Below are positions 40,641 to 60,771 of a stretch of 64,000 bases of DNA, one piece after another. The notes beneath the pieces were generated by a model. It had not been told where the DNA came from and did not search any database. It saw only the letters and a list, made by a program, of their open reading frames with translations. Both the position numbers and the translations under genes were made by a program. Position 1 is the stretch's first letter; each line of letters begins with the position of its first letter. Source of the stretch: Natronolimnobius sp. AArcel1 (GTDB lineage: Archaea; Halobacteriota; Halobacteria; Halobacteriales; Natrialbaceae); contig NZ_JAAKXY010000005.1 of assembly GCF_011043775.1 (NCBI RefSeq), forward strand, positions 186,001 through 250,000. The letters are read 5' to 3'.

Positions 40641-42779
40641 TCACCTCTCTCGAGGATTCGCACTCGTCAGAATCTCGAACCGTGCCCCACCGGCAGCGCT
40701 TTCGCCAACAGCAATCTGCCAGTTGTGTGCTTCGATGACATCACGGACGATTGCGAGACCGAACCCGGTGCCGTTCTGACTCGTCGTCTGTCCGCGTTCG
40801 AAGACAAACTCCCGTTGGGCTGGCGGAATTCCAACACCATCATCTTCGACGACGAATCCTCGAGCGGGATCGTCCTCGAGATGGCTGATTCGAACGGTTA
40901 CTGCTGGTGTGCTGTGCTGTGGTGCTGACTGATCAGTACTCTCGCCCGTCGTCGCTTCAGTGGTGGTGGTCTGTTCTTGCGCTGTCGATGCGGTGTGACC
41001 CAGGCCGTGTTCGACACTGTTTCGAAAGAGGTTCTCGAAGACGTGCAGCAGCTGCGTCTGGTCACCATGAACTGTCCATCCTGCCTCGAGTTCACACTCG
41101 AGTGTCACTCCATCTGTCTGGGTGATGGTCCAGGCATCGGTGATCACTGCCTCGAGGTCGACTGGTTCGGGGTCCGTAACCGTCGTGCCAGCCTGGGCCA
41201 TCGTCAGCAGATTCGTGATCATCTGTTCCATCCGGTCGTGAGCGTTGGCTATTGCCTGAAAATCGTCCGGACTCGCGGAGGATTCAGCAAATTCGACGTA
41301 CCGCCGTGCAATGCTCAGTGGCGTTCGAAGATCGTGACTGACGACACCCGAAAACTCCTCGAGTCGCCGGTTTGTCCGCTCGAGTTCGCGCTCGCGGTCG
41401 TTTCGCTCGGTGACGTCACGTGAGTTGATCACGACGCCGCCGACGATATCGTTCTCACGCAAGTCGACGGCGACGCCCTCGAGGACGAGACAGGAGCCGT
41501 CACGATGGTGCACGCGATATTCGAATCGTCGTTCGGTTTCTGGCCCGTCGCACAGCGCGGTGAACTCCGCAATTGCGTCGTCACGGTCATCCTCGTGGAT
41601 GATCCGAAACAACGCATCGCCGATGCGGGCGTCGGGTTGATAGCCGAGAACAGTCTCTATTGAGGGACTGGTGTACGTGATGATGCCGTTTTCGTCGACG
41701 ACGGTTACAAGGTCAGAGACGTTTTCGATGAGCGCCTGGAAGCGCTTTTCGGCGCGGCGCTGTTCGGTCACGTCCCGAAGCATCAAGACGACACCGCTGC
41801 TCTTGCCGTCGTCGACTACTGACACACTTGCGGTGACGATAGTTCCGTTTTTCTCGAACGTCGTTTCTCGCACCGCTCCCTCGAGTAAGGGGAGACACTC
41901 TGGTAGGACGGCATCGATGGATTTCCCGACCGCCTGGCTGTCAACAAGCAGTGACTGGGTGGCTGGATTTTGGTCGACGATCCGGTGTTTGTCGTCGACG
42001 ACGAGATAGCCATCGCGCATCTCATCGATGACGGTGTCACGAGCGATGGGGAGGAGGTCGAGCCATCGATACCGATAGAGTGCAATGGCGATGAGAATTC
42101 CTGTTGCACCAAAACCCCAGACCGAGTAGTTGATGGCTGTCACGCCACTGAACGCGAGGACGTTTGCCGTTCCAGGGATCAGCGGCGCAAGAACGACTAA
42201 CCGCGCTTGTTTTTGGTAGACACCAGTGCCTCGGGCCTCGAGATATTCGATGAAAAAGAGGAGGATGCCGCCGGCAGAGAGCGACCAGTTCCAGAACACG
42301 TAGAGCCAGTAGCCGGTGTTTTGGTATTCGACGACCGGCAACAAGACCTGTGTATAGGATATTGGTTGGTGCATCCAGTTGTGGATCGGATCCGTCAGGA
42401 TGACGATGAGCCAGGCGCAGGTTCCGAGATACACGATGCCGAGTCGTCCCGGTCGGAGCCAGTCGGTCCGATCGGAATACGTGAGCGCAAAGTGAAAGAG
42501 TCCGGTTGCCATGATGACGGCACCGGCGTTGATGATCACCGACAGCACGAGACCAAGGGTCGGATTCGTGACGAGCAGTAGCAAGCCCTGTGGAAGTGTC
42601 CAGAGCGTTGTTCCGCCCAGAAAGGCACTCAAGGGGACGACGTCGGCTTTCGTCCGGGTTCGCAGGACGAGGCCGGCGAGTGAGAGATTCAAGAGTCCGA
42701 TGAGGACAAGGCTTCCCGCGTGTACCATTGTGAACTCTTGGGGCACATCCTCTCGATTGGTGAGCAGTGTGAAATACAT
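40641..42779 (-). CDS. 7TM-PAS-PAS sensor histidine kinase
   Basis: Membrane sensor kinase of 712 residues. The N-terminal 230 residues form about seven hydrophobic helices (for example VLIGLLNLSLAGLVL, LLLVTNPTLGLVLSVII and LGTCAWLIVILT), typical of haloarchaeal histidine kinase 7TM modules, then two PAS domains (about residues 250-355 and 365-475), a HisKA helix with its His in VVSHDLRTPL, and HATPase_c with LFRNSVEHG, DDGVGIPPAQ and GTGFGLAIV. A repeated Gln/Thr/Ala stretch (HTASTAQEQTTTTEATTGE) is inserted in the ATPase domain between N box and G1. An alternative start is the ATG 17 codons in, just before the first helix. Divergent from the receiver-kinase gene. Confidence 0.93.
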   Translation of the reverse strand: MYFTLLTNREDVPQEFTMVHAGSLVLIGLLNLSLAGLVLRTRTKADVVPLSAFLGGTTLWTLPQGLLLLVTNPTLGLVLSVIINAGAVIMATGLFHFALTYSDRTDWLRPGRLGIVYLGTCAWLIVILTDPIHNWMHQPISYTQVLLPVVEYQNTGYWLYVFWNWSLSAGGILLFFIEYLEARGTGVYQKQARLVVLAPLIPGTANVLAFSGVTAINYSVWGFGATGILIAIALYRYRWLDLLPIARDTVIDEMRDGYLVVDDKHRIVDQNPATQSLLVDSQAVGKSIDAVLPECLPLLEGAVRETTFEKNGTIVTASVSVVDDGKSSGVVLMLRDVTEQRRAEKRFQALIENVSDLVTVVDENGIITYTSPSIETVLGYQPDARIGDALFRIIHEDDRDDAIAEFTALCDGPETERRFEYRVHHRDGSCLVLEGVAVDLRENDIVGGVVINSRDVTERNDRERELERTNRRLEEFSGVVSHDLRTPLSIARRYVEFAESSASPDDFQAIANAHDRMEQMITNLLTMAQAGTTVTDPEPVDLEAVITDAWTITQTDGVTLECELEAGWTVHGDQTQLLHVFENLFRNSVEHGLGHTASTAQEQTTTTEATTGESTDQSAPQHSTPAVTVRISHLEDDPARGFVVEDDGVGIPPAQREFVFERGQTTSQNGTGFGLAIVRDVIEAHNWQIAVGESAAGGARFEILTSANPRER

Positions 42780-42963
42780 TCCGCGTCAACTGAGTGGCAG
42801 TATTCCCTGCTCGTTTGCTCAGGCCCACTGCCATCGTTCCTTCCTCAAGAAATGGGCAAGTGCAGTCGATTCAGTAACATGACTTTCGGTGAACTCATAT
42901 AACTGTTGTCCACAGTTACCATACTGCTCCGCTGGCCTCGCCCGCTTTCGCAGGTGTCAACGA

Positions 42964-44082
42964 ATGTCTCTGACCGATCCCGACGATGCCGTCGAATTGC
43001 TCCTCGTTGAGGACAACCACGACGACGCCCGATTCATCGAACGGCTGATCCACGAACGCCAATCCACCCTCGAGCGAGAGGGGACTGACGCGCCAATCGA
43101 GATCGCTGCGATTGACCATGTTGATCACCTCGAGGCCGCGCTTGAACGAATCCGAACAGACTCGCCGGACGTCGTCCTCCTCGATCTATTGCTTCCTGAT
43201 AGCCGTGGACTCGAGACGATTGAGCGCGTTATCGAGTATGCGCCGGATCTGCCGATTGTCGTTGTGACCGGCCAGAACGAAACCGACACTGGCATCGAAG
43301 CGATCCAGTGTGGGGCCCAAGAGTATCTTTCAAAAGGGACTGTTACTGGCGAGACGATTTTGCGAACGCTTCGCTACGCACTCGAGCGCTCGCGACACCA
43401 GCGTGAACTCGTTGACCGGAATCATCGACTTGCGCTGCTCAATCGGATCGTCAGACAGGATATCAGAAACGACGTGAGCATGATCGTCGGTCTCGGCGAC
43501 CAACTGCAGGACGGTATTGACCCGAACGACGAACGAACCCTCGAATTGTTACTTGACGCGGCTGACCACGCTGTTGATCTCACAGATACGGCTGCTGCAG
43601 TGATTGACGTGATTGCAGCAGATAGTGTCGAACACGATCCGTGTGATCTGCACGCGATTCTCGAACCCGAGGTTACACGGATGCAACAGACTCACAATGT
43701 CGAACTCACGTTCGAACGTGCGGACCCCGACGAGGGACCAGTGATCGTTCGGGCGTCACCGATGCTCGGATCCGTATTCGAACACCTCCTCGACAACGCT
43801 GTTTCTCACTCTGACCAGCCGACACCACAGGTCACCGTGACACTCGAGACGACCGAGACGAACGTCACTGTCACAATCTGCGATGATGGAATCGGTATTC
43901 CGGACGCGCAGAAACAGGCGCTGGCCGATCCGAACGCCCGATTTTCTGCTCGATCTGGAATGGGCGTCGGGTTGTATCTGGTGACGACACTGCTCGAGTC
44001 CTTCGGTGGCCATCTCGAGATTACCGACAATGATCCGCGGGGAACGCAGGTTGCTGTGACGCTCGAGCGAGAGTTGTTGTAA
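42964..44082 (+). CDS. Receiver-kinase protein lacking the phosphoacceptor His
   Basis: A cytoplasmic protein of 372 residues. Receiver domain (residues about 11-135): acidic pair in LLLVEDN (Glu16/Asp17), phosphoacceptor Asp74 in VVLLDLLLPD, Lys124 in YLSKG. The dimerisation helix then reads LLNRIVRQDIRNDV; in related haloarchaeal proteins this is RHDIRNDM, with His the phosphoacceptor. Here position 165 is Gln (codon CAG), so autophosphorylation on that residue cannot happen. The HATPase_c domain looks complete: LLDNAVSHS, DDGIGIPDAQ, GMGVGLYLV. ATG 42964 (MSLTDPDDAVELL) is chosen; upstream codons are non-family. It diverges from the 7TM kinase, which may phosphorylate its receiver. Confidence 0.88.
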   Translation: MSLTDPDDAVELLLVEDNHDDARFIERLIHERQSTLEREGTDAPIEIAAIDHVDHLEAALERIRTDSPDVVLLDLLLPDSRGLETIERVIEYAPDLPIVVVTGQNETDTGIEAIQCGAQEYLSKGTVTGETILRTLRYALERSRHQRELVDRNHRLALLNRIVRQDIRNDVSMIVGLGDQLQDGIDPNDERTLELLLDAADHAVDLTDTAAAVIDVIAADSVEHDPCDLHAILEPEVTRMQQTHNVELTFERADPDEGPVIVRASPMLGSVFEHLLDNAVSHSDQPTPQVTVTLETTETNVTVTICDDGIGIPDAQKQALADPNARFSARSGMGVGLYLVTTLLESFGGHLEITDNDPRGTQVAVTLERELL

Positions 44083-44499: not shown

Positions 44500-44528
44500 G
44501 GCCTGTCCAGATGGTGTATGGACAGGCC
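44500..44528. promoter_or_regulatory. perfect 10-bp inverted repeat over the HxlR start codon
   Basis: GGCCTGTCCA (44500-44509) and TGGACAGGCC (44519-44528) are exact inverted copies with a 9-nt spacer. The right arm overlaps the ATG at 44518 and a TATA-like ACATATAG lies at 44487-44494, about 26 nt before the ATG. Binding here would block transcription start, so this is a good candidate for autoregulation by the HxlR-type protein. A CTGTCCAG octamer occurs again at about 44453-44460. Confidence 0.6.
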
Positions 44529-45342
44529 CGACGTGTTCCTCCCACCTGACGATCGGCTCGCGCTTGACGCCCTATCGTTGCTCTCGAATAAGTGGGAGCC
44601 AGTCGTAATCGCCGTTCTTCTGGAGTCTGGTCCCCTTCGGTTCAGCGAACTCGAGGCTGCCATTCCTGATATCTCTCCGAATATGCTCACGAAGACACTC
44701 GAGTCGCTCTCAGAACACGACCTCATCGACCGGTCTGTCGTCACCGACTCACCGTTGACTGTCTCGTATGAGTTGACAGATGCCGGTCGTGACTTGCAAC
44801 CGGTGTTTGACTCGCTCATCGCCTGGGGATCCGACCATATTGGCTCTGTTCGGCCAACGGTCATCCTCGGTGACCGTGATCGCCGACTCCTCGAGTTGTA
44901 CGGCGCGTGGCTAGACAACGAATTCGACAGTCAGACGGTCAGTGACCAAGCACAGCTTCAACGCCGCTTCGCGGAGACACCGGATGTCGTTGTCTTCGAT
45001 ATCGATCTGTGGGATGACGATCCACCCACGTTTAGTCGGCGCTGTCCCGGAACGACCCGACGCATTGGGCTTGTTGGTGACCGTCCTGCCCCGTCACTCT
45101 GTGCGTGGCCATGCGATACGTTCCTTCGGAAACCGCTTCGCAAAGACGAACTGATCGCTGCCGTTGATCGACAGGTCGAACGACTCGGTCAACCAGAGCC
45201 GACACGCGAGCGCGAAGCAATCGAATCGACGCTGTCGCTTCTCGAGGGGACGTACTCGAAGCAACTGTTGGAAACGGACGAGCACGTGGCACCACTCTAT
45301 GATCGGCTCTCATCCCTCGATGATTCACTTAGGGAAACCTAA
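44518..45342 (+). CDS. HxlR-type wHTH fused to receiver-like and HalX-like domains
   Basis: A 274-residue fusion. Residues 1-105 form an HxlR-type winged helix: LDALSLLSNKWEPVVIAVLLESGPLRFSELEAAIPDISPNMLTKTLESLSEHDLI, then SYELTDAGRDLQPVF. Residues about 113-222 look like a receiver: VILGDRDRRLLELYGAWL, Asp161 in DVVVFDIDL, and Lys205 in FLRKPLRKDEL. The final 45 residues (STLSLLEGTYSKQLLETDEHVAPLYDRLSSL) form a coil like the HalX tail of haloarchaeal REC-HalX regulators. Fusing HxlR to a receiver is unusual. The start codon sits in a perfect palindrome, and two kinase genes lie in the same region (40641 and 42964). Confidence 0.8.
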   Translation: MDRPDVFLPPDDRLALDALSLLSNKWEPVVIAVLLESGPLRFSELEAAIPDISPNMLTKTLESLSEHDLIDRSVVTDSPLTVSYELTDAGRDLQPVFDSLIAWGSDHIGSVRPTVILGDRDRRLLELYGAWLDNEFDSQTVSDQAQLQRRFAETPDVVVFDIDLWDDDPPTFSRRCPGTTRRIGLVGDRPAPSLCAWPCDTFLRKPLRKDELIAAVDRQVERLGQPEPTREREAIESTLSLLEGTYSKQLLETDEHVAPLYDRLSSLDDSLRET

Positions 45343-45379: not shown

Positions 45380-45401
45380 CGGGTTGAATTTACTCTATCT
45401 C

Positions 45402-48400
45402 ATGGCAAACATGGGACGGAATACGACCCGGTATAACTCGGGCGTATTCATCTGGGTTGGTTTACTTGCTGTCTGTGGATTGTGCATCGGTGCAGGTGCA
45501 GTCGGAATCGCTACAGCAGACGGTGATCGCGAGTTTTCGTCGGACGGTGTCACACCGACGCAGTTCGATAGTAACGAAAGCGATGTTCTTTGGGAGACTG
45601 ATACAGCCCTCTCGACGGGGGCAGCCCCAACGGTGGTCGACGGAATTCTCGTAACGACAACCGGCATCTCTGGCGGAGACGGGACTGTCACTGCGTACGA
45701 CGTGGGGACGGGTGAGACGCGCTGGACGACCGAGATTCCGGCCGACGGGTCGCCGACCGTCGTCGACGGGACGGTCTACGTCACCGGCGCAGACAGCGTA
45801 TGGGCGCTCGATCTGGAACTCGGGACGCTCGAGTGGGAGGTCGAGTTCGAGGACGGGACCAGTTCCTCGCGAGCGCTCGGGGTCGACGGCGAGTACGTCT
45901 ATGTGGGTTCGGACGGAGATCACCTCCACGCCCTCGACGCCGAGGACGGCACTGAGCAGTGGTCAAAAGAGACGGCGACCATCTACAGCGGTCCAACCAT
46001 CGTCGACGGGACCGTCTACGTTGGTACGGCCGACGAGCTCGTTGCGGTCGATGCGTCTGACGGTGAGGAACAATGGACGTGGGACGACTACGGCGTCCTC
46101 GAGGATCGGTCGGCCATCTCGGAGCCGACGGTGTCCGACGGCCTCCTCTACGTCAGCCTTGGAGAGGGAACCGAACAGGGTGGCTACGATCGCTCCACCG
46201 TGGCGCTCGACCTCAAGGATGGCGTGACTGAGTGGACGTACGAGTTTGCCGATCCCTCGGGAGGAGACGTCTCCCAGACGCCCACGACACCAACAGTCTC
46301 GGGCGAGAACGGTGAGGAAACGGTTTACGTCGCATACGACGGACTGTACGCCCTGGATGCGGCCGACGGTTCCGAACGCTGGACCGACGAGACGACGGTG
46401 TGGGACGCACCGACGGTAGCCGACGGAATGGTGTTCGTTCCGCAGTCGACCGATTCAGAGGCGCTACGAGCGCTCGAGGTGACTGACGGCGAAGAACTGT
46501 GGTCAGTCGAAACGGGTGATCGCAGCAATATTATCGTTGTCGACGGCATTGCCTACGTCGCGGCGCAGACAGGAGATACGCGACTGCTGGCCATCGACGC
46601 CGGCGTCTCGGGATCCAGTGCAGACTCCCGTGTGATGCTCGGCGCGCAAAACAATCACCACGCGTGGACTGGCGAGGTGCCCGAGACGGAGCCTCGCGTC
46701 GTGGACCTCGAGTACGATGAGGGCGTCTTCGCCGGAGACGAGGTTTCGGTCATGGTGACGGCCAGAAACGACTGGGGTCCAACGAGTGCTGCGAATTACG
46801 ACCTCGAGATCGACGGCGAGGCCGAGACCGTGACCCTCGACGTTCCGGCCTACGGGACGAACACCGCCGACTTGTCGTTACCCGCGCCCGATGAAGCAGG
46901 GACGTACGACCTCGAGGTCGATGGCGAGGTAGTCGGGACGATTACCGTCGTTGACGAGTCCGATCCGATCGTCAGGGACGTTCAGCCGTTCTACGAGACG
47001 TGGCTCGAGGGCGAGTCGATACAGATCGCCTATGAGGCGACGAATATCGGGACTGGTGACGACGGCCACGTAGAGGAGGCGACGCTTGAACTCGAAGAAG
47101 TGGATAGCGAGGAACGCGAAGTCGTCGGCTACACGGACGAATCGGAAGCACTCGGTTCAGGTGAGACGAGGACATACTACCTCGATACCGACGGAACCAG
47201 CGACCCCGGCGAGTACACCGCGTACCTCGAAGGAGAGGCAATTGGGACGGTTGTCGTGGTTCCGGAATCAGACCCAGTCCACTTGGCCGACACCAACCGA
47301 CTGCACGATTCGATCATCAGCGGCGTTGAAGCGCCGGTTGACTCGAGCGCTGCAGGCGAGGCGAGCGTCGACGTGCGCTACGAGAACCTCGCCAACGAGG
47401 ATCAGAGTGTCGACAGCGAACTCGTCGCTTACGATGGGGGAAGTGAAGTCTCGAGCGTCACCGAGACCGTTGACGTCGGCGGCGAAAGCGCCGTGACCGC
47501 GCGATTGAGCGTTCCGATTGCCGAAGCCGGTACGTACGATCTCGAGGTCGACGGCCAGCCCGTCGGTGACGTTGAGGTACTCGTCGACGGCGTTCAGGAC
47601 GGTGACAGCATTCAGGACGCAATTGACGCAGCCCAGCCAGGCGAGACGATCCTCGTCGGCGATGGGACCTACGAAGAGTCACTGACGATAGACAAGGAAT
47701 TGACGCTGCGTTCGGTGTCCGACGGTGGTGCCGTCCTCGATGGTGGGGACGAACTCGAGCGTGCGATCACGGTCGAGTCGGATGACGTAACCGTCGACGG
47801 GTTCCGGATTGAGGGGTATTCCGGCGGAGGCGAGGCAGTCTTCATCGATGGTGATCGGTTCACACTTCGAAATACCGTTCTCGTCGACAACGATATTGAC
47901 GCACTTTCAATCAACCGAAACAGTAACGAATTCAGTATCGATCGCAACGAGATTCGCAGAAACAAGGACGGTATTGCCGACGTTGATAGTTTCCACGCTT
48001 CCGACCTGGGTACAATCACGAACAACACGATTAAAGACAACCATGGTCTTGGGATCGACCTTTCAGGGGACGATCACGTTATCGAGACGAACAACGTGAG
48101 CGGCAACGAAAACGGGATTTCTTCGACAGGATGGAGGTCGGAAATCCGTCACAACAACGTGTCGACAGCCGACGGAACTGCCATCGAAACGTTCGCCGGG
48201 GCAATCATCGAGGACAACGTAATCCAGAACACTCCTATCGGAATCGAAGGTAACTGGGACGATCTCACCGTTCATGCAAACGAGTTCTCGGGCACGGAGA
48301 CCGACCTCATCTTGGACGACGTTACCGATATTACTGTCACAGACAACCAGTTCGCTACTGGAATCAGCCTCTCTAACGTTCCTGACAATCTCGACGACAA

Positions 48401-51400
48401 GCCACACGAGATGTCCGGAAACACCGTTGGAGGGGATCCGCTCGTGTACGTCGTTGGCGAAGACAGTCCCGAGATCGACTCGAGTGCTGGACAGGTCATC
48501 CTCGTCGACGTGACAAACCTTGACCTTGAGGGCCACTCCTTCTCGGACGTGACGGCGGGAGTCCAGATAGCACACTCCGATAGCGTCGATGTCACCGGCG
48601 CCGACTTCACTGATATCGGTGACGGCGGCGCGATCAGTATCTGGCACTCGTCGTCTGTGACCGTCGATGATGTCGACGTGATGGACGCAGAATATGGGGT
48701 GGACGTTTTCGATAGTGACGGCGTGACGGTCTCGAATGTGGACTTCACAGCTGTCGGTCGCACCGCGATTCACGTTGAACACGTCGAGGACCTCTCAATC
48801 GTCGGGAACAGCGTCCAGGACGCTAACCGCGGTCTCCACGTACTCACTGCAGACGAGTTGACAGTGATAGACAACGTCATCGAGGACTCGAGCACTGGCG
48901 TTCAGTTCGGTCGGCTCTCGCCTGGCGGTCTGTCCACGGTTGAAAACCTCACGTTCACGAACAACACGATCACCGGAAGTAGCGGCGACGGCGTGAAGAT
49001 GGATTGGGGTTCGCTCACCGGCGACGTGACGGTTCGCGATTCCATCGTTCGTGACAACGACGGAGTCGGAATGGACCTCGACATCGACGGTGTAAGCGCG
49101 ACGGTCGAGAACAACACCGTCAGGGACAACAACGGCGATGCTGGATTCGATCTCAGCGTTGAAGGAGAGACAGTAACGGTTACAAACAACACCGTCAGGG
49201 ACAACGACGGTGACGCCGGATTTGCCATCGATGTCGAGGGCGAGACGGCGACAATCTCGAACAACGTCGTCACGAACAACGGCGCCGACGTCGGGTTCGA
49301 TATCGAAATCGAGACGGTCGACGGTTCGATCGAGTCGAACACCGTCCGACACAACGTCGACGGACTCGTTGTGGCCGGTGCGACCGCTACCGGCGTGAAC
49401 GTCACGATCACCGAGAACCTCATCGAGGAGAACACGGGGACCGGACTCACCGTCAGCGATCACTTCGAGTCTGTTCTCGTTACTGAGAACTCCATCGCCG
49501 ACAACGACGACGGGTTCCACTACAACCGTGGAGACGACGTAGTTCTCAACGCGACGAACAATTGGTGGGGTGCGGCCGACGGGCCGAGCGGCGACGCAAC
49601 CGACCCCGACACTGACGACGTCGCCGAGGGAAGCGGCAACTCGATCACGACCAGCGATCGAGACTGGTTAGACGACGAGTCCGTTCGATTTTCACCGTGG
49701 CTCGAGGTCCCACTCGTTGAGACTGGAACGATCACTGGCACTGTCACAGACGATTCCGACACCCCGCTTGAGGGAGCGACTGTCGTCGTAACCGACAACG
49801 CCGAAATCACTGAAACGGTCGAAACCGACGAAGACGGCGAGTACGAACTCATCGTTCCCGCCGGGACGTATGACCTGACGGTGAGTGCTGACGGCTACGT
49901 CGAGGGCGAAGCGACCGGCCTCGAGGTGACTGAAGACGATACACTTACCGAAGACGTCGAACTCGAGGCGGTCGATGTCGAACCCGAAACAGGAACTGTC
50001 GCCGGCCAGGTGACCGAAGCAGAGACCGACGATCCTGTCATGAGTGCCCATGTCACTGCCACTGGCGGTAGTGATCACGAACTTACGCTCTCTGACGTAG
50101 ACGGAAAGTACGAACTCGAGCTCCAGCCGGGAACGTACATACTCGAGGTGTTCACCGAAGACGTACCGCCGTTGACTGGAACTGCCGAGGAGGTCGTGGT
50201 GACTGACGGTGAAACCACGACGGCCGATATCGTCGTCTCGCCGGAGCCGCTCGAGCCGCCGTCGACCAACGTTTCCGTGGAAATTCTCTCTGACGAGAGT
50301 ACGACGAGCGTTACCGAGGGTTCGGAGCTGACCGTCGTAGCGTCGGTAGAGAACACCGGTGACGAACCAGCCGAGCGCATGACCGGGCTTGGCGTCATGC
50401 CGGCGACCGGTCTCCCTGACGGCGGTGACGGAACGGTTAATTCAGAGATGACCACGGAGGTAGACCGTGTGGAACCACTGTACGAGTCGGATCTTCGTGA
50501 AATCTCCCTCGAGCCAGGTGAAACAACCACCGAGACGTTCACGTTCGAGTCGGACCTCGAGTTCGATGGTGCCGAGGCAATCGTCATCGCTGCCGAACCG
50601 GGTTCGGAGGAGGTGACCGAGTTCGACACCATTGACCTCTCTGTGTCACCGGATACCGATGCACCGGACCTCGCCGTCCGAGAGACGAGCGTGTCGAACA
50701 CAGAACCCGAAACCGGTGACGTGGTGACGATCACCGCGTCAGTCGAGAACGTCGGCGAGGGTGCTGGCGACCTGGTCGTTCCACTCGAGATCGACGGCGA
50801 AACCGTTGATACCGTCACTCGAGAACTGGAAGCCGGTGAGACAGAGGCTGTCGAGTTCACGCACACGTTCGAGACGGGCGGAGAGTTCGATGTCTCCGTT
50901 GGCGGCGAACCGGCGGGCATCGTCATGGTCCAAGAGAGCGCAGACGTTTCGATTTTCGGTGCGAGCGTGGATCGGACGGAGCTACTGGTCGACGAACGGG
51001 CCGAGGTCACCGCGAACCTCTACAACAGCGGCGACGTTGAGGGCGACATAACGGTCGAGTTGTACGCTGAAGGAGAGCATATTGAAGAGACGGTCATCGA
51101 AACCGAAACTCTCACCGCCGAACCGGGAATCACTCGTGACGCCGTCGAGTTCGAGTGGACACCGACTGAGGAACAACTCAATGGCCTCGACAACGATACT
51201 GTCACCATCAGACTCAACGATCTGGTTGTCGAGACGCTGCCGCTTGAGAACCAGTACACAGACCTCCAGGTCATCGCTGCGTCTGCATCGGAAACCGAAG
51301 TCGTGCAGGGAGAGGAGTTCCACGTTGTCGGGAGCCTCTATCAGGCTGGGACGATAGACGGACCAGAGACGATTTCGTTGAACGCGACGGCTCGAGACGG

Positions 51401-54400
51401 CGACACGGAGGTTGAACTCAACGTTACCGACGAGGTTTCGCTCGAGCCAGGGTTCTACCACCTCGGGGCGGTGAACCTCTCGGCGTCGTTCGATGAGGAG
51501 ATCGAGGCCGGAACGTACGATCTCACGCTCGGCGAGCGAGATGCCGGCGAACTCGAGGTTGTCGATGCCTACTCGGATATCCAAGTGATCGCTGCGTCTG
51601 CCTCGGAAACTGAAGTCGTGCAGGGCGAGGAGTTCCACGCCGTGGGCAGCATCTACCAGAGCGGGACGATTGACGGTCCCCAGGATATCTCGTTGAACGC
51701 AACGCATCAGGACGATAGCACCGAGACGGTGACGCTCAACACGTCCGAAGACGTTTCGCTCGAGCCAGGGTTCTACCACCTCGGGGCGGTGAACCTCTCG
51801 GCATCGTTCCACGAGGAACTCGAGGCCGGCACGTACGACCTCACGCTCGGCGAGCGAGATGCCGGCGAACTCGAGGTAATTGAAGCCACCACAGATATCC
51901 AGGTGATCGCTGGTTCTGCATCGGAAACTGAAGTCGTCCAGGGCACGGAATTTCACACCGTGGGCAGTATCTACCAGGGCGGGACGACTGACGGTCCCCA
52001 GAATATCTCATTGAACGCAACGCATCAGGACGATAGCACTGAGACGGTGACGCTCAACACATCCGAAGACGTTTCGCTCGAGCCGGGATTCTACCATCTC
52101 GGGGCGGTCAACCTCTCAGCATCGTTCGACGAGGAACTCGAGGCCGGCACCTACGACCTTACGCTGGGTGAGAACGACATCGGTGAGATTGACGTCATCG
52201 AGTCTTACTCGGATATCCAGGTGATCGCCGCGTCTGCCTCGGAAACCGAAGTTGTACAGGGTGAGGAGTTCCACGCCGTGGGCAGTCTCTACCAGAACGG
52301 GACGACTGACGGTACTCAGGATATCTCGTTGAACGCAACGCATCAGGACGATAGTACCGAGACGGTGACGCTCAACACGTCCAAAGACGTTTCGCTCGAG
52401 CCGGGATTCTACCATCTCGGGGCGATCAACCTTTCGGCGACCATTGATGAGGAGCTTGAGGCCGGCACGTACGACCTCACGCTCGGCGAGCGAGATGCCG
52501 GCGAACTCGAGGTTGTCGACGCCTACTCGGATCTCGAGGTGATCGCCGCTTCGCCTTCGGAGATGAACGTCACCAAGGGTGAGTCGTTCTACGTTGTTGG
52601 GAGCATCTACCAGAATGGGACTGCGTCTGAGCCGGAAGACATCGAGCTGAATATCTCGCCGACCGATGGAGACGAGGTCCACCCACTCAACGTTTCGAAG
52701 GATGTCGAACTCGAGCCAGGAGTCTACCACCTCGGGGCGGTCAATCTCTCGGCGACGATTGGCGACGAGTTCGAGGCCGGCACCTACGACCTCACCCTCG
52801 GCGACCGCGACGCCGGAACGATTGGCGTCGAAGAATCGCCGTCCGACATTCAGGTAATTGCGGGTTCGGTCTCAGAGATCGAAGTTCTCCAAGATGAGGA
52901 GTTCTACGTTGTCGGGAGTATCTATCAGAACGCGACGGCAAATGGCGGCGAGTCGTTCCCCGAGACGATTCCGCTGACGGCGACACCAGAACACGAGAGC
53001 GGCGAGCCAATCGACCTCGGTTCGGAAACTGTCGAACTCGAGCCCGGGGTCTACCATCTCGGCGCGCTCAATATGTCCAATACAATTTCCGACCCAGGAA
53101 CGTACTCGCTCACACTGGGAGAGCATGATGTCGGTGAAATTGAGGTCATCGAAACGCACTCCGATCTGCAGGTGATTGCGGCGTCTGCCTCCAAAGACGA
53201 GATTGTGCAAGGTGAGGAGTTCCACGCCGTGGGCAGCATCTACCAGAACGGGACCGTCTCCGAGCCAGAAGACATCGCGCTGAACGCCTCGCCGACCGAT
53301 AGCGATGACGTCTACTCGCTCAACGTCTCGGAAGACGTCGAACTCGAGCCGGGGGTCTACCACCTTGGGGCGATCAATCTCTCGGCATCGTTCGACGAGG
53401 AACTCGAGGCAGGCACCTACGATCTTACGCTCGGCGATCGAGATGCCGGCGAACTCGAGGTTGTCGACGCCTACTCGGATATCCAAGTGATCGCCGCGTC
53501 TGCATCGGAAACCGAAGTCGTGCAAGGCGAATCATTCCACGCTGTGGGTAGCCTCTACCAGAGCGGGACCGTCTCCGAGCCAGAAGACGTCGCGCTGAAC
53601 GCCTCACCGACCGATAGCGATGCAGTCCACTCGCTCAACGTCTCGGAGGACGTCGAACTCGAGCCAGGAGTCTATCACCTCGGAGCGGTCAATCTCTCGG
53701 CGACCATCGACGAGGACCTCGAGGCCGGCACGTACGACCTCACGCTCGGCGAGCGAGATGCTGGCCAACTCGAGGTTATCGATGCCTATTCAGATCTCCA
53801 GGTGATCGCTGCGTCTGCCTCGCAAACCGAAGTTGTCCATGGCGAGGAGTTCTACGTGGTGGGAAGCATCTACCAGGACGGGACTGTTAACGAACCCGAG
53901 AACGTCTCGCTGACGGCGTCTCACCAGGACAGCACGGAGACGGTGGCGCTCAACACGTCCGAAGACGTTTCGCTCGAGCCTGGATTCTACCACCTGGGTG
54001 CGGTGAATCTCTCCGCGACGTTCGAGGAGGGACAGACCGGGTCCTACGATCTCTTCCTCGGCGAGCAGTCAGCCGGTACGCTCACCGTCAGCGAACCAAC
54101 CGTCGACATCACTGAGATTGACGTCCATGGACATGCCGGCGGCATCGATCCCGATGAAGAGCACGCAAGCGACGAGGCTACTGTCGACGTGACAGTCGAG
54201 TCCGACCTCGCGGTACAGAACGTGAGCGTCTTCGTCGACTCGCTCGAGACGAACTATCTCGTCGAAGTCGATGCAGATCACATCGCTGGCGAGGACTGGT
54301 CGGCCTCGATACCACTCGAGGACCTCCCAGACGACGGCGCGTATACACTCTCTGCACTCGCCGTCGACGAAAGCGACACGGCCGACTCCTTCGCGTCGGA

Positions 54401-55790
54401 CCGAACACTCGTGATCGACCGAGAAGCACCATCACTCGCGGTCTCGCTCGAGGATATCTCCAGCGATGACGCAACGGTCGTCGTCGAGAGCACTGAACCA
54501 CTCGCTGACGTCCCGGACGTCTCCGCGACATTCACTGACGACGACGGCGCGTCCGAATCCGCAACTGTGACGATGGATGATGCGGGTGCAGGTGCGACGA
54601 CGTACACTGGAACGATCGAGTTCGATCACTCTGGAAATTACAGCGTTACGGCTACTGGAACCGACCTGGCTGGAAACTCCGGTGAGGACACCACCTCAGC
54701 GGTCATCTACACCGGGTTTTCACTCGCGGATGAAACGATCACAATCGACGAGACTGGAACGACGATTGACTTCCACGTCGATGATCCAGAACTAACGTCT
54801 GATGATCTCTTCCTCGCGTTCTCCGAAGGCACCGTCAACGCGAATCTAGACGACGATGAACTCGGGGTTGGCTTCTTGTCCGCAGAACTCGATGACCTCG
54901 TCGATTCGTGGTTCGATGACGGAACCATCGACCACGCGACAATCTCGATGCCAATCGAGGAGAGCGACCTCGCCGATGGCTACACCGCATCCGATGTTGG
55001 ACTCTATCACTACGACGAGCAAGACACTACCTGGGATCCAGTCGAATCGACGATCACGAGCCCCGACAGTGATCCAACGCTCGTCGCTGACATCGACGGC
55101 TTCTCCACCTATGGTGCCATCGTTGTCGACGACGAACCACCCGAAGTTATGGCCGAGACACCTTCCGATGGGGAAGTCCTCGATGACGGCACCGACACGG
55201 TCACCGTTCAACTCGAGTATGAGGACTCGCTCTCCGGCATCGACGTGAGTTCGGTCCAACTCGAGGTCGATGGCACTGATCGAACTGACCACGAGAACAC
55301 CTCGATCACGTCGTCCGCAATCGAACACACGATTTCCGTCGAGGACGGCACTGACTACGATGTGTGGCTCTCGGTTGCCGACAATGCAGGGAATGAGGCG
55401 ACGCACGAACTGTCGTTCGAGGTCGACTCACCCTCGACGGGATCACCTATTGGCGGTGGAAGTGGGTCATCTCCACCAGCAGACGACGACACGTCCAGCG
55501 ATGATGAGTCATCGGATACGGACGATGACGAATCTGGTGCCGACGATGACAAACCTGTGTCTGACGACGATGCAGCGGACGATTCTGACGAAGAGACGCC
55601 GCTGCCTGCTGACGATGATCCGTCACCAACTGATGATGAGGCGTCGCCGACTGACGATAGTGACACACCGGCTGATGGCGATGACACGGCCTCGGATGCT
55701 GGATCTGATCGCGTTCCTGGCTTTGGAGTCGTTGTCACCATCGTCACAGTGCTCCTCGTGCTCACGTACCTCCGTCGGTTGCACCACTAA
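45402..55790 (+). CDS. Giant multidomain surface protein with PGF-CTERM-like tail
   Basis: A secreted, cell-surface protein of about 3462 residues. Order of parts by nucleotide: signal peptide (VGLLAVCGLCIGAGAVGIATA, to about 45530); PQQ-like beta-propeller (45586-46670, blades such as VDGTVYVGT and LYALDAADGSERW); three CARDB/Ig-like modules (46690-47580); right-handed beta-helix of NosD/PbH1 type (47582-49705, ending NNWWGAADGPSG); two carboxypeptidase-regulatory-like folds (49730-50250); CARDB-like modules (50255-51250); nine tandem repeats of about 105 residues (51256-54099); Ig-like (54100-54710); a PGF-pre-PGF-like domain (54715-55125); Ig-like (55130-55430); an Asp/Ser/Pro stalk (55440-55700); and a tail VPGFGVVVTIVTVLLVLTYLRRLHH fitting PGF-CTERM, a sorting signal cut by archaeosortase A. 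Probable role: adhesion or matrix. Neighbour signalling genes may regulate it. Confidence 0.93.
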   Translation: MANMGRNTTRYNSGVFIWVGLLAVCGLCIGAGAVGIATADGDREFSSDGVTPTQFDSNESDVLWETDTALSTGAAPTVVDGILVTTTGISGGDGTVTAYDVGTGETRWTTEIPADGSPTVVDGTVYVTGADSVWALDLELGTLEWEVEFEDGTSSSRALGVDGEYVYVGSDGDHLHALDAEDGTEQWSKETATIYSGPTIVDGTVYVGTADELVAVDASDGEEQWTWDDYGVLEDRSAISEPTVSDGLLYVSLGEGTEQGGYDRSTVALDLKDGVTEWTYEFADPSGGDVSQTPTTPTVSGENGEETVYVAYDGLYALDAADGSERWTDETTVWDAPTVADGMVFVPQSTDSEALRALEVTDGEELWSVETGDRSNIIVVDGIAYVAAQTGDTRLLAIDAGVSGSSADSRVMLGAQNNHHAWTGEVPETEPRVVDLEYDEGVFAGDEVSVMVTARNDWGPTSAANYDLEIDGEAETVTLDVPAYGTNTADLSLPAPDEAGTYDLEVDGEVVGTITVVDESDPIVRDVQPFYETWLEGESIQIAYEATNIGTGDDGHVEEATLELEEVDSEEREVVGYTDESEALGSGETRTYYLDTDGTSDPGEYTAYLEGEAIGTVVVVPESDPVHLADTNRLHDSIISGVEAPVDSSAAGEASVDVRYENLANEDQSVDSELVAYDGGSEVSSVTETVDVGGESAVTARLSVPIAEAGTYDLEVDGQPVGDVEVLVDGVQDGDSIQDAIDAAQPGETILVGDGTYEESLTIDKELTLRSVSDGGAVLDGGDELERAITVESDDVTVDGFRIEGYSGGGEAVFIDGDRFTLRNTVLVDNDIDALSINRNSNEFSIDRNEIRRNKDGIADVDSFHASDLGTITNNTIKDNHGLGIDLSGDDHVIETNNVSGNENGISSTGWRSEIRHNNVSTADGTAIETFAGAIIEDNVIQNTPIGIEGNWDDLTVHANEFSGTETDLILDDVTDITVTDNQFATGISLSNVPDNLDDKPHEMSGNTVGGDPLVYVVGEDSPEIDSSAGQVILVDVTNLDLEGHSFSDVTAGVQIAHSDSVDVTGADFTDIGDGGAISIWHSSSVTVDDVDVMDAEYGVDVFDSDGVTVSNVDFTAVGRTAIHVEHVEDLSIVGNSVQDANRGLHVLTADELTVIDNVIEDSSTGVQFGRLSPGGLSTVENLTFTNNTITGSSGDGVKMDWGSLTGDVTVRDSIVRDNDGVGMDLDIDGVSATVENNTVRDNNGDAGFDLSVEGETVTVTNNTVRDNDGDAGFAIDVEGETATISNNVVTNNGADVGFDIEIETVDGSIESNTVRHNVDGLVVAGATATGVNVTITENLIEENTGTGLTVSDHFESVLVTENSIADNDDGFHYNRGDDVVLNATNNWWGAADGPSGDATDPDTDDVAEGSGNSITTSDRDWLDDESVRFSPWLEVPLVETGTITGTVTDDSDTPLEGATVVVTDNAEITETVETDEDGEYELIVPAGTYDLTVSADGYVEGEATGLEVTEDDTLTEDVELEAVDVEPETGTVAGQVTEAETDDPVMSAHVTATGGSDHELTLSDVDGKYELELQPGTYILEVFTEDVPPLTGTAEEVVVTDGETTTADIVVSPEPLEPPSTNVSVEILSDESTTSVTEGSELTVVASVENTGDEPAERMTGLGVMPATGLPDGGDGTVNSEMTTEVDRVEPLYESDLREISLEPGETTTETFTFESDLEFDGAEAIVIAAEPGSEEVTEFDTIDLSVSPDTDAPDLAVRETSVSNTEPETGDVVTITASVENVGEGAGDLVVPLEIDGETVDTVTRELEAGETEAVEFTHTFETGGEFDVSVGGEPAGIVMVQESADVSIFGASVDRTELLVDERAEVTANLYNSGDVEGDITVELYAEGEHIEETVIETETLTAEPGITRDAVEFEWTPTEEQLNGLDNDTVTIRLNDLVVETLPLENQYTDLQVIAASASETEVVQGEEFHVVGSLYQAGTIDGPETISLNATARDGDTEVELNVTDEVSLEPGFYHLGAVNLSASFDEEIEAGTYDLTLGERDAGELEVVDAYSDIQVIAASASETEVVQGEEFHAVGSIYQSGTIDGPQDISLNATHQDDSTETVTLNTSEDVSLEPGFYHLGAVNLSASFHEELEAGTYDLTLGERDAGELEVIEATTDIQVIAGSASETEVVQGTEFHTVGSIYQGGTTDGPQNISLNATHQDDSTETVTLNTSEDVSLEPGFYHLGAVNLSASFDEELEAGTYDLTLGENDIGEIDVIESYSDIQVIAASASETEVVQGEEFHAVGSLYQNGTTDGTQDISLNATHQDDSTETVTLNTSKDVSLEPGFYHLGAINLSATIDEELEAGTYDLTLGERDAGELEVVDAYSDLEVIAASPSEMNVTKGESFYVVGSIYQNGTASEPEDIELNISPTDGDEVHPLNVSKDVELEPGVYHLGAVNLSATIGDEFEAGTYDLTLGDRDAGTIGVEESPSDIQVIAGSVSEIEVLQDEEFYVVGSIYQNATANGGESFPETIPLTATPEHESGEPIDLGSETVELEPGVYHLGALNMSNTISDPGTYSLTLGEHDVGEIEVIETHSDLQVIAASASKDEIVQGEEFHAVGSIYQNGTVSEPEDIALNASPTDSDDVYSLNVSEDVELEPGVYHLGAINLSASFDEELEAGTYDLTLGDRDAGELEVVDAYSDIQVIAASASETEVVQGESFHAVGSLYQSGTVSEPEDVALNASPTDSDAVHSLNVSEDVELEPGVYHLGAVNLSATIDEDLEAGTYDLTLGERDAGQLEVIDAYSDLQVIAASASQTEVVHGEEFYVVGSIYQDGTVNEPENVSLTASHQDSTETVALNTSEDVSLEPGFYHLGAVNLSATFEEGQTGSYDLFLGEQSAGTLTVSEPTVDITEIDVHGHAGGIDPDEEHASDEATVDVTVESDLAVQNVSVFVDSLETNYLVEVDADHIAGEDWSASIPLEDLPDDGAYTLSALAVDESDTADSFASDRTLVIDREAPSLAVSLEDISSDDATVVVESTEPLADVPDVSATFTDDDGASESATVTMDDAGAGATTYTGTIEFDHSGNYSVTATGTDLAGNSGEDTTSAVIYTGFSLADETITIDETGTTIDFHVDDPELTSDDLFLAFSEGTVNANLDDDELGVGFLSAELDDLVDSWFDDGTIDHATISMPIEESDLADGYTASDVGLYHYDEQDTTWDPVESTITSPDSDPTLVADIDGFSTYGAIVVDDEPPEVMAETPSDGEVLDDGTDTVTVQLEYEDSLSGIDVSSVQLEVDGTDRTDHENTSITSSAIEHTISVEDGTDYDVWLSVADNAGNEATHELSFEVDSPSTGSPIGGGSGSSPPADDDTSSDDESSDTDDDESGADDDKPVSDDDAADDSDEETPLPADDDPSPTDDEASPTDDSDTPADGDDTASDAGSDRVPGFGVVVTIVTVLLVLTYLRRLHH
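51256..54099 (+). repeat. Nine tandem protein repeats of about 105 residues
   Basis: Each unit runs from [YT]SD[LI]QVIA[AG]SASE to a Val/Glu end such as AGELEVVDA and contains the phrase LEPG[FV]YHLGA[VI]N[LM]S and, in most units, EAGTYDLTLG. Units 2, 3 and 4 share nearly identical DNA in the centre (for example the block CACTGAGACGGTGACGCTC or its CACCGAG variant), which suggests recent duplication or gene conversion. Unit 6 carries an insertion and is most divergent. Confidence 0.9.
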
Positions 55791-57128: not shown

Positions 57129-58253
57129 CTACATCGAGGGGCCAACCCGCTCAATCGCAAACGATGTAACACCATGGCGCTCTGCTCGACTCTGTTCACC
57201 AGCGGCGACCGATCGAACAGTTTCCTCGAGATCATCAACGGTTGCCTCTCGAGCATCGATATCGATGTCTGTCCCGAGTGCAGTGAGTGTCTCGTCGTTT
57301 GCACAGACTTTGATGACGGGTGCAATTGGGTGTCCAGTTGGAATCCCATCTCCGGTGACGTGGATGATGAGATGGACACCTGCGGCGGCGAGTGCCGTTG
57401 CAGCCTCCTCGAATCGAGAGCTAGCACTGACGAACCCGAGTTGTGTGTCTTGGCTTGGTGTCTCTCCGTGTTCGAGGACTGCATCGACTGGCGCGGTTCC
57501 CCAGGCTCGAGTGCTCTCGTCGAACGTGTAGGACTGGGCGTCGGCTCGCAGGCGTGGCGTTCGCGATGGGCCACGGTTCGCCTCGAGAATGCCATCGATT
57601 CCTGTCTGTTCAGGGGTTTGTGTACTCGCGTTTTCGAAGCGTTCGCGGGCTGCTGATGGATGGGCGGTAATCCGTTCGGTTCCCGCAACAAGCACCCGGC
57701 CGCCGGCATCGATGACGCGGTCGGCAAACGCACCCACAAGCGGGTCAGCCTGCGTCCGTGTCGACTCACTGAGATCGGTACTGACAATCCCAACAGTCAG
57801 CTCATCCAGATCTGTTGGTGCCGTATCGACGCTCGCTCGAGTGCGGATTTCACGAGCGAGTTCGCTCCCCCGATCAACACAGGCTTCCGTACCGCCGACA
57901 CCTTGGATCGAGAGCTCTGCGACATCAACACCCCGTTCTGAGAGTTCGTCAGCGACGGAGTCACTTTGGACGTGCTCGCAGCCAAGGCCAACCACGACCG
58001 TCCCAGCGATATTTGGATGGTCACCGAGTGCGATCAGCGTCTCTCGAGTCAACGCATTGTCGTGGCCGAGTTGCGCACAGCCGTGATCGTGGGGTGCAGC
58101 GACACAGCCCTCGATTTGGTCAGCAATTCGTTCGGCAACAATGTGTGAACAGATCACTGACGGGAGAATCAACACGTTGTCTCTGATTCCACCTGCCGAA
58201 TCTGGTGTACTGGCCTCTTCCTCGAGTTCGCCGTCAGCGTGGTCTGTACTCAT
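57129..58253 (-). CDS. UxaA-C paralogue 2 (retains H..GC and GLGCE, lacks ECGGSD)
   Basis: A 374-residue protein homologous to the large C-terminal part of UxaA/altronate dehydratase and related Fe-dependent sugar-acid dehydratases. The first half keeps the family motifs HDHGCAQLGHDNALTRETL (His55, Gly-Cys 58-59) and VVVGLGCEHVQ (89-93), aligning with the E. coli UxaA region HTYGCSQLGDDH and VIGLGCE. The second half is degenerate: where the family has ECGGSD it reads VSTDLSE (157-163), and the SPGN...GG motif is absent, although the late segment GIPTGHPIAPVIKVC remains. It is the last gene of a three-gene operon, overlapping the SAF gene by 4 bp. Probably a partner subunit, not an independent enzyme. 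Confidence 0.86.
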   Translation of the reverse strand: MSTDHADGELEEEASTPDSAGGIRDNVLILPSVICSHIVAERIADQIEGCVAAPHDHGCAQLGHDNALTRETLIALGDHPNIAGTVVVGLGCEHVQSDSVADELSERGVDVAELSIQGVGGTEACVDRGSELAREIRTRASVDTAPTDLDELTVGIVSTDLSESTRTQADPLVGAFADRVIDAGGRVLVAGTERITAHPSAARERFENASTQTPEQTGIDGILEANRGPSRTPRLRADAQSYTFDESTRAWGTAPVDAVLEHGETPSQDTQLGFVSASSRFEEAATALAAAGVHLIIHVTGDGIPTGHPIAPVIKVCANDETLTALGTDIDIDAREATVDDLEETVRSVAAGEQSRAERHGVTSFAIERVGPSM

Positions 58254-58600
58254 TCGGTTTGCACCTCCGGTTGGTCTGCATCTGTCTCTGGATCGCTCTC
58301 CTCGTCCGTGTCTGCAGTCGCATCGGAAACCTGTCCGCGAAGACTGGTGCAGTTGTGGGTATGAACCCACTCGCCGGCTTCAATCGGCGCTGTTGTGCCG
58401 CCGATGACTTCGTCGTATTTGCAGACCTCATCGCCTTTCTCGTGGTCAACCAGTGCCACCTTGTGACCGAACGGGACGTCCTCGCTGAGAGTAATCGTCT
58501 CGTCATCGCTGAACTCGATTTCGTCGCCTCTATCAGCATCCTCGAGTAACGTTACGACTGTATCTGCTGCATCGAGTCGGATTCCTGGTCGTCGTGTCAT
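58250..58600 (-). CDS. UxaA N-terminal SAF-domain protein
   Basis: A 116-residue SAF-domain protein equivalent to the N-terminal domain of UxaA or to SuyA. The signature regions are DVPFGHKVALVDHEKGDEVCKYDEVIGGTTAPIEAGEWVHTHNC, which corresponds to the E. coli segment GHKFALTDIAKGANVIKYGLPIG and EHVHAHN. The C-terminal 30 residues are an acidic tail. In E. coli the SAF domain is fused to the catalytic part; here it is separate and flanked by two UxaA-C genes, overlapping both by 4 bp (ATGA), so the three are made together and presumably assemble. Confidence 0.9.
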   Translation of the reverse strand: MTRRPGIRLDAADTVVTLLEDADRGDEIEFSDDETITLSEDVPFGHKVALVDHEKGDEVCKYDEVIGGTTAPIEAGEWVHTHNCTSLRGQVSDATADTDEESDPETDADQPEVQTE

Positions 58601-59784
58601 GCTGTCTCACCGAAGCGCTCGATTTCGTTTGGCAGGCGTTCGTTGATCGCAAACTCATGCATGCCTCTGGCTTCTGCAGCAGTCTGTTGGCCGTTTGCGG
58701 TTTCTACGATCGTTTCAAAGAGACGGTCGCCGACGTCCTCGAGGTCGTCTCCGCCGATGATCGTACTGGCGTTGACATCCATGTTCGAGGCCATCCGCTC
58801 CCAGGTCTGGGGGTTTCCACAGACTTTGATCACGGGCGCAATTGGATTTCCGGTGGTGCTCCCACGCCCGGTGGTAAAGACGATGAGTTGGGCACCGCCG
58901 GCGACTTTGCCAACAACGCTCTCGACGTCGTAGCCAGGCGTATCCATGATGACGAGTCCGCCTTCAGTCGGTAGTTGCTCGCCGTATGAAACGATATCTT
59001 GAATTTCTGTTGTTCCGCCTTTGACGATTGCGCCAAGACTCTTCTCTTCAATCGTCGTGAGTCCGCCTTCTTGATTTCCTGGCGACGGCTGGGCACCACG
59101 CAGGTCCACACCCATCAGGTCTGCCATTCCTTCGCGTCGGTCAACGGCGGCAAGCAGACGTTCTCGAACATCGTCGTTTGCACAGCGATCAGCGAGAATA
59201 TGCTCTGCCCCGATAAACTCCGGCGTCTCGCTAAAACTCGCGGTCCCACCGGCCTCGATCAGCGTATCACAGGCCTCACCGACAGCGGGGTTCGAGGCCA
59301 AGCCACTCGTTGCGTCACTCCCGCCACATTCGACCCCGACGATCAACTCCGAAACTGGGGCCTCTTCACGCGTTGTGTCTGCCGTCTCTGCTGCGAGGTC
59401 AGCAAGTTTCGAAATGCCAGTATCAACGGCATCTCGAGTCCCGTTGCATTCTCGAACAGAGAGCGTTTCAACTGGGCGTCCAGTCGCTGCAACCTCATCT
59501 GCCAGCGCCTCGGCATCGAGGACTTCGGTCCCAAGTGAGACGAATACGGTTGCACAGACGTTTGGATTTGTTCCGATTCCTGTCAGGACACGTTTTCCTT
59601 GCTCGAGTGCAGGCGCTGGCGCGTCTGCGGCAAGTTGATGTGGCGTTGCCCTGGCACGCTCCGGACCGCCATCTGCAATAGCCGTCGCAACAGCACTTGC
59701 GGCCACAGAGAGCGGCACGACGGCGATCGTATTTCTGACGCCGACGCGGCCATCCGATCGTCGATAGCCGAGGAAGGTTTCCAT
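58597..59784 (-). CDS. UxaA-C paralogue 1 (retains ECGGSD and SPGN, lacks H..GC)
   Basis: A 395-residue homologue of the UxaA/GarD/SuyB large domain. It keeps the motif VGVECGGSDATSGLASNP (ECGGSD at 152-157), SPGNQEGGLTTIEEKSLG (from 234) and TTGRGSTTGNPIAPVIKVC, matching E. coli ECGGSDGLSG, SPGNKAGGITTLEDKSLG and STGRGTPYG. The N-terminal half is intact in fold (YRRSDGRVGVRNTIAVVPLSVAAS) but has lost the first motif set: where the family has H..GC it reads TPHQLAADAP, and GLGCE is SLGTE (83-87). It starts the operon; a TATA-like TTATGCGTATAG lies upstream (about 59804-59815). Expected role: catalytic half of a sugar-acid or hydroxy-acid dehydratase. Confidence 0.88.
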   Translation of the reverse strand: METFLGYRRSDGRVGVRNTIAVVPLSVAASAVATAIADGGPERARATPHQLAADAPAPALEQGKRVLTGIGTNPNVCATVFVSLGTEVLDAEALADEVAATGRPVETLSVRECNGTRDAVDTGISKLADLAAETADTTREEAPVSELIVGVECGGSDATSGLASNPAVGEACDTLIEAGGTASFSETPEFIGAEHILADRCANDDVRERLLAAVDRREGMADLMGVDLRGAQPSPGNQEGGLTTIEEKSLGAIVKGGTTEIQDIVSYGEQLPTEGGLVIMDTPGYDVESVVGKVAGGAQLIVFTTGRGSTTGNPIAPVIKVCGNPQTWERMASNMDVNASTIIGGDDLEDVGDRLFETIVETANGQQTAAEARGMHEFAINERLPNEIERFGETA

Positions 59785-59940: not shown

Positions 59941-60771
59941 TTACACCGTCGTGAGAAACGCCCGAAGTTCCTCGGTTGCCCGTTCTCGTTCGTCCCAGAA
60001 GACGCAGTGTCCAGCGTTGTCGACGTGTACGAGTTGTCCATCTGGGAGGCACCCAGCTATCTCTCGTTCTCGCTCGCGTTCTGCCTCGCTCGCGTCGGCT
60101 TTCAGAATGAGCGTCGGCGCCTCGAGATCGCCATACATCTCGGTGGGATCGAGTAGTCCGGCTTCGAACACACGGGCGATCTCGGGTCGAAGCCGCTTCC
60201 TGGCTTCGGCCACTCGCCGTGCGAGGTCTGCTTGCCCGGACTCGGTGAGGTCTCTGAACATCGTCTCGGTCTCGAGGAGTTCCTCGACGCTGTGGTCCTG
60301 CCAGTTCGCAATCTGTGCGTCAATATTCTTTCCTGGATCGCCCTCGATCACATCATTAACTCCATCAACCATCCAAACGGGGTCTTCGAGGATGACAGCT
60401 CGGGGCCGGTCTGATTGGCGGGCTGTGGCTTCCGTGACTGTATCGGCACCCATGGAGTGGCCGAACAAGATTGGGTCTTCAATCGCGAGCCCCTCGAGCA
60501 GTCCGAGCAGGTCCGCTGCCCGTTCAGGCGCGCTGTATTCCTCGTCAGGGGCGTCGGAACGACCGTGGCCTCGAGCGTCGTATAGCACAACATCGAACTC
60601 GTCCTCGAGTTCACGGGCGAGGTCGAGCCGACAGTACCCGTCATCAGTCAAGCCGTGGGAAATGACGAACGGCGGACCCGACCCGCCGGTGCGGCAATAG
60701 TGCACCTCGATGCCGTTCGTTTCGATGAATCCGCGCTCCCACTGTTCCGGGACCTGTGTTTGTCCGCTCAT
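59941..60771 (-). CDS. Alpha/beta hydrolase
   Basis: Serine hydrolase of the alpha/beta fold, 276 residues, cytoplasmic. The oxyanion HG is in [10 protein letters not shown], the nucleophile elbow is FGHSMGADT, and the late His in [12 protein letters not shown]; the acid of the triad is likely the Asp in LKADASE. The substrate is not assignable, although lactone or ester hydrolysis would fit the neighbouring sugar-acid dehydratase operon. It lies upstream of the UxaA operon on the same strand with a gap of 156 bp, so it could be co-regulated. Confidence 0.9.

Follow-up and report, generated by a model that had tools for sequence, protein, structure and literature searches.

A giant predicted surface protein of haloarchaea with an arm-pair-arm array of CARDB-derived repeats and a linked set of regulator genes

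The giant gene and its neighbours

The window, a stretch of 64,000 nucleotides from Natronolimnobius sp. AArcel1 (contig NZ_JAAKXY010000005.1, positions 186,001 to 250,000), carries an intact open reading frame of 3,462 amino acids with homologues in relatives, in line with the protein of about 3460 residues proposed in a preliminary description made from the letters alone. The start codon is the ATG at 45402, and a TTG is found in frame at 45384. The features of the gene and of its conserved partners are the following:

40641 to 42779, minus strand: 7TM-PAS histidine kinase, a conserved partner that in several relatives immediately follows the giant gene
42889 to 44082, plus strand: receiver and HATPase protein, a conserved partner
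44518 to 45342, plus strand: HxlR-type regulator, a conserved partner, with 59 bp between its end and the giant gene
45402 to 55790, plus strand: giant surface protein gene
45402 to 45540, plus strand: N-terminal hydrophobic signal or anchor region, read by eye as a basic start followed by FIWVGLLAVCGLCIGAGAVGI; putative signal
45567 to 46601 (ends approximate), plus strand: PQQ-like beta-propeller head (PF13360, E 4.5e-35), missing from several relatives
46689 to 47591, plus strand: three Ig/CARDB-like modules, recognised by eye, with all Pfam matches under the cut-off
47610 to 49646 (ends approximate), plus strand: right-handed beta-helix (PF13229, E 3.2e-46; NosD PF05048, E 1.2e-29)
49728 to 50237, plus strand: two carboxypeptidase-regulatory-like folds (PF13620, two stretches; extent of the second by eye)
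50652 to 50939, plus strand: CARDB module (PF07705, 45.1 bits), two modules before the array
50937 to 51257, plus strand: CARDB-like module immediately before unit 1 (CARDB 18.3 bits; repeat profile 24 bits)
51258 to 52526, plus strand: arm 1, repeat units 1 to 4 (starts 51258, 51573, 51891 and 52209)
52527 to 52841, plus strand: unit 5, specialised central unit X, with the C-terminal end VEESP
52842 to 53159, plus strand: unit 6, the other specialised central unit (Y), whose insertion NGGESF is also present in the Y units of some relatives
53160 to 54107, plus strand: arm 2, repeat units 7 to 9 (starts 53160, 53475 and 53790)
54102 to 55436, plus strand: conserved C-terminal block of Ig-like modules and an unnamed domain
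55437 to 55703, plus strand: Asp/Ser-rich acidic linker
55704 to 55787, plus strand: PGF-CTERM-like tail (VPGFG, transmembrane segment, RR), in a genome encoding archaeosortase A

The domain inventory given earlier is borne out by Pfam, with PQQ_2 (PF13360), Beta_helix (PF13229), NosD (PF05048), CarboxypepD_reg (PF13620) and CARDB (PF07705) all above their gathering scores. Within the C-terminal block, the unnamed conserved domain occupies positions 54714-55136 and has no Pfam match above the cut-off. Whole-protein matches to PCuAC, malonate decarboxylase and LolC (Pfam/NCBIfam) have been discarded as weak matches summed over the nine repeats, and copper binding has been rejected because single units score far under the cut-off. 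No match was obtained in the phage collection that was searched. Adjoining the giant gene, a pair of neighbouring genes with galactarate/altronate dehydratase domains occupies 57129-59784 (minus strand); no homologue of them turned up next to the giant gene in relatives. Positions 60710-61366 hold what looks like a degraded transposon gene, a TnpB-type fragment with a Cas12f1-like TNB domain (Pfam E 3.5e-8).

The archaeosortase-type tail predicted in the preliminary description can be read as a PGF motif, a transmembrane helix and a terminal Arg stretch, and archaeosortase A (TIGR04125, 324.9 bits) is encoded in the genome. The protein shares these traits with the PGF-CTERM substrates of that enzyme (TIGR04126) but differs from them in that its tail falls under the curated TIGR04126 cut-off (18.7 bits against 24.5, and 11.6 bits in hmmscan). 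The same succession of PGF, transmembrane segment and basic tail is present in every relative in which the C-terminus was read, with the sole exception of L109 (genome G389), a 2960-aa frame with a nine-unit array and no PGF tail. The end of the latter is dockerin-like by eye (DGVVDTAGLLTAISDWR...), its C-terminus has no Pfam match, and an alternative anchor is possible in this protein.

A repeat unit derived from CARDB

The motif LEPG[FV]YHLGA[VIL]N[LM]S is found in nine copies, the number given in the preliminary description, in nine units of 105 or 106 amino acids tiling from residue 1953 (window positions 51258-54107), and Tandem Repeats Finder reports a period of 318 with 8.7 copies and a score of 1933. 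The DNA of units 2 to 4, previously called near-identical, is in fact 82-89% identical, with a longest exact shared stretch of 56 bp. The outlier of the array is unit 6, which contains a short insertion and has 51-60% protein identity to the other units. A two-unit higher-order repeat was sought by comparing identity with lag and was not found, since the trend tracks the central pair and not the even lags.

That the repeats match no recognised domain holds in the sense that no Pfam family scores above its cut-off for any single unit; in a scan of 62 units, CARDB, whose gathering score is 22.7 bits, was not among the matches listed at E≤10. The suggestion of a new family, understood as a new kind of domain, is not supported by fold prediction and profile comparison. 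With an alignment of these 62 units, taken from the window and the named relatives and used both for fold prediction and for the profile, AlphaFold2 predicts for one unit an all-beta fold of eight strands (pLDDT 90.8, pTM 0.82), an Ig/FnIII-like sandwich. The best solved matches of this model in Foldseek are GH3 beta-glucosidases (E 3e-4), which carry an FnIII-like domain of the size of the repeat unit, and we read the matched part as that domain. A CBM20-like match (PDB 1ac0, E 0.068) has been taken as chance. Profile comparison by hhalign aligns the 62 units, over nearly their whole length, with 12 CARDB domains encoded elsewhere in its genome (92.9%, E 3.7e-7) and with a two-sequence CARDB set (96.7%, E 3.9e-10), against 10.5% for the CarboxypepD_reg fold used as negative control. 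Moreover, the repeat profile recovers from another genome an ordinary CARDB-PGF protein (E 1.2e-9), precisely on the stretch that Pfam assigns to CARDB, and the module at 50937 to 51257 is, judged from its sequence, an intermediate bridging CARDB and the repeats.

The unit thus shares with CARDB (PF07705, E-set Ig-like clan) the Ig-like beta-sandwich and a profile alignment over nearly the full unit, but no unit reaches the CARDB cut-off, and the repeat family has marks of its own in the conserved YHLGA.N core and in the signatures GS.YQ.G and SDI.VIA. Our conclusion is that the repeat represents a diverged CARDB offshoot, specific to this lineage, within the E-set Ig superfamily, neither a member of Pfam CARDB nor a new fold.

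Layout and length of the array

Identity matrices place the most deviant units of the arrays in one adjacent central pair. Each array consists of a first arm, a specialised pair X-Y and a second arm, and copy numbers are nearly confined to 9 and 11. Models of X and Y, built from the 11-unit arrays only, recover the pair at units 6-7 in 16 of 16 such arrays when each is left out in turn, at units 5-6 in all nine-unit arrays of the first set except the ambiguous L040, and at units 4-5 in the arrays of 8 and 7 units; in a nine-unit array from another family, added afterwards, the pair again falls at 5-6. Because the models place the central pair, layouts can be counted for 32 arrays: 5+2+4 in 16, 4+2+3 in 13 (including L040), 3+2+3 in two and 3+2+2 in one. 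An earlier assignment of 3+2+4 has been replaced by 4+2+3 for L044; for L040 it is ambiguous, and this array has been counted as 4+2+3 because its unit 5 resembles the X units of L044 and L041. None of the arrays could be given 10 units with certainty, and L043 was excluded from the counts, its apparent 9.5 units falling on an N in the assembly.

The lengths of the two arms shift in the same direction in seven of seven independent pairs (sign test, p 0.016), on trees built from units 1, X, Y and the last unit and, separately, from the C-terminal block, which are both concordant. The comparison of the window with Natrarchaeobius chitinivorans (9 against 11 units) illustrates the point: X, Y and the two terminal units can be matched one to one, and each arm differs by a single unit. 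Arm lengths are therefore statistically coupled. Since the arms are kept in step, array length is under constraint, and copy number is nearly always 9 or 11 because two arms round a fixed pair change together. AlphaFold prediction of the whole array (pTM 0.27) does not tell a straight stalk, a hairpin and other arrangements apart.

The simplest structural idea for the coupling is an antiparallel pairing of the arms. Extended to the whole system, the array would be a length-matched two-arm device in which arms 1 and 2 are paired, either in an antiparallel hairpin turning at X-Y or in an antiparallel dimer crossing there, units would be gained or lost in matched steps, and the resulting fibre would be the dedicated output or sensor of the circuit formed by the 7TM kinase, the receiver-HATPase protein and the HxlR regulator; this proposal is speculative and, as a whole, rather unlikely to be right. 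A stronger candidate, although still somewhat short of an even chance, concerns the arm coupling only and holds that matched arms reflect inheritance and not selection, whole-array recombination among strains and paralogues having spread a small number of ancestral array types (9 and 11). The independent pairs are few, and the X units of two paralogous arrays of one genome (L030 and L031 in G006) are identical, from which it follows that conversion between arrays happens and that the recombination account remains live. However, concordance is still seven of seven on the tree made from units inside the array, and in the clade of the window an alignment by descent of arrays with 9 and with 11 units leaves one extra unit in each arm.

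Copy-number variation, anticipated in the preliminary description, is real between species, which have 7, 8, 9 or 11 units, so that the repeat number is not fixed among relatives; rapid change within a species is unsupported, because the sole same-species pair is equal and DNA identity between units is modest. The pair in question, L110 (NZ_CP027032.1) and L111 (NZ_CP024046.1), comes from Natrarchaeobaculum sulfurireducens, of which the strains AArc1 and AArc-Mg both have 7 units, in DNA that is 99.9% identical and in giant proteins with 100% identity over 2,677 residues; the strains being so close, their equality says little on the long-term rate. In AArc-Mg a 5' truncation within the beta-helix has removed the first ~890 codons of the giant gene, and the HxlR and receiver genes that should precede it are missing as well.

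Periscope proteins are described as having tandem folded domains that vary in number among homologues, with repeats highly similar in DNA and a number that changes within species (PMC8201768, PMC9704523). The giant protein resembles them in the varying number of its tandem folded domains, and differs in the 82-89% DNA identity of its units, the unchanged number in the one species pair and the predominance of 9 or 11 copies. It is on account of these same differences that a fast copy-number-variable stalk of the Periscope kind, as the preliminary description suggested, seems very improbable, even though species do range from 7 to 11 units and some interior units are as alike inside one protein as across species.

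Distribution, linked regulators and possible role

The array has been found in 27 of 125 genomes of the source family (Natrialbaceae) and, outside it, in Natronocalculus (Haloferacaceae), in one genome of one more family and in a Natronomonas MAG, the latter on a 3,390-base contig with three units. There are thus about 30 relatives with the array, with proteins of about 2,200-4,360 amino acids, and several copies of the gene are plasmid-borne. Named carriers are Natrarchaeobius, Natronorubrum, Natronocalculus, Natronolimnohabitans, Natrononativus, Natronosalvus and Natrarchaeobaculum, mostly soda-lake organisms. Heads differ among relatives (propeller and helix, helix only, or neither recognised; a beta-helix in six of seven relatives scanned), with the array and the C-terminal block being kept. 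The combination of domains, earlier regarded as unusual, is therefore confirmed in its components but is one of several heads of a recurring family, in which several relatives are without the propeller. The C-terminal block is common to nearly all relatives; that of L073 was missed by the tblastn probe, yet the segment clusters with L030 in the tree. Literature searches found no description of such an array.

A homologue of the HxlR regulator (E<1e-40) is present in all 27 array genomes against 9 of 98 others (Fisher p 5e-20), and one of the 7TM kinase (E<1e-150) in 18 of 27 against 2 of 98 (Fisher p 3e-13), both tests ignoring shared ancestry. In 12 loci, the window included, the HxlR gene has the same orientation as the giant gene and lies within 400 bp upstream of it. 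The kinase gene is directly downstream, on the same strand and at 28-174 bp, in L035, L041, L044, L045 and L073, and public annotation places it likewise on Natrarchaeobaculum plasmids. Homologues of the partners recur beside the giant gene in shuffled orders, and because gene order is altered among loci a functional linkage is favoured. The HxlR gene is distant from the giant gene in some array genomes (G021, G016 and G025), and the HxlR-receiver pair is found without the array in nine genomes, sometimes beside another large or propeller-bearing protein. In two array-bearing genomes of one genus the HxlR homologue has an in-frame TGA (G153:C2:702046-702840 and G051:C61:24312-25109), which is either regulator decay or a sequencing error.

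Taken together, the protein is probably a fibrillar protein of the haloarchaeal cell surface, carried mostly by alkaliphiles, that is regulated by a signal, anchored by archaeosortase and presents a variable head on a CARDB-derived stalk. It would be secreted through its N-terminus and anchored at its C-terminus after processing of the PGF tail by archaeosortase A. The repeats, assigned to CARDB-derived Ig-like domains by fold prediction and profile homology, would act as a stalk or spacer. Their array is not a uniform rod, with two arms of lengths kept in step flanking the specialised pair. An exchangeable head of beta-helix and/or propeller would be held away from the cell and probably binds a polymer or another cell. 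Linkage and co-occurrence suggest that the 7TM histidine kinase, the receiver-HATPase protein and the HxlR-type regulator control the expression or the activity of the protein.

Fibrillar adhesins are described as combining a surface tail, a stalk of tandem Ig-like domains and a distinct N-terminal head (PMC8286594, PMC9210967). The giant protein has the same plan but, compared with the adhesins as described there, it is archaeal, with an archaeosortase-type tail, no recognised adhesive domain and an arm-pair-arm array. Pfam sees the propeller and the beta-helix, but no domain with a known ligand specificity was recognised in the giant protein, and for this reason the word adhesin can refer only to its architecture. 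The VARTIG modules of Thermococcales are gene modules for large archaeal proteins that are secreted and carry CARDB-type Ig domains, with a hypervariable Ig domain at the C-terminus (PMC8416519); the giant protein is likewise a large archaeal protein with CARDB-type Ig domains in a gene module, but nearly all of its relatives have its C-terminal block in common, and its partners are signal-transduction genes.

The kinase gene directly downstream on the same strand and the strong co-occurrence of kinase and array would also suit an extracellular sensor subunit, and not an adhesin, with a head that binds a polymer or an ion and signals through the 7TM kinase to the receiver-HATPase protein and HxlR. 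This role appears unlikely, given that nine array genomes are without a close kinase homologue and that the cytoplasmic part of the giant protein amounts to a few residues at most. Haloarchaea have giant envelope proteins, and the size, the acidic linker, the PGF-type tail and the Ig-like modules would fit a structural role in the cell coat, either halomucin-like or S-layer-associated and with no specific ligand; the patchy distribution (27 of 125 genomes) and the regulator set linked to the gene speak against a constitutive coat protein and make this a decidedly doubtful explanation.

What is newly seen here is the arm-pair-arm layout of the array and the linked regulator set. Tandem-domain stalks are usually seen as spacers that tolerate any copy number, whereas matched arms round a fixed pair suggest a higher-order architecture, open to testing with purified protein, and the link with a sensor kinase and an HxlR regulator offers a concrete entry to the control of giant surface proteins in haloarchaea.
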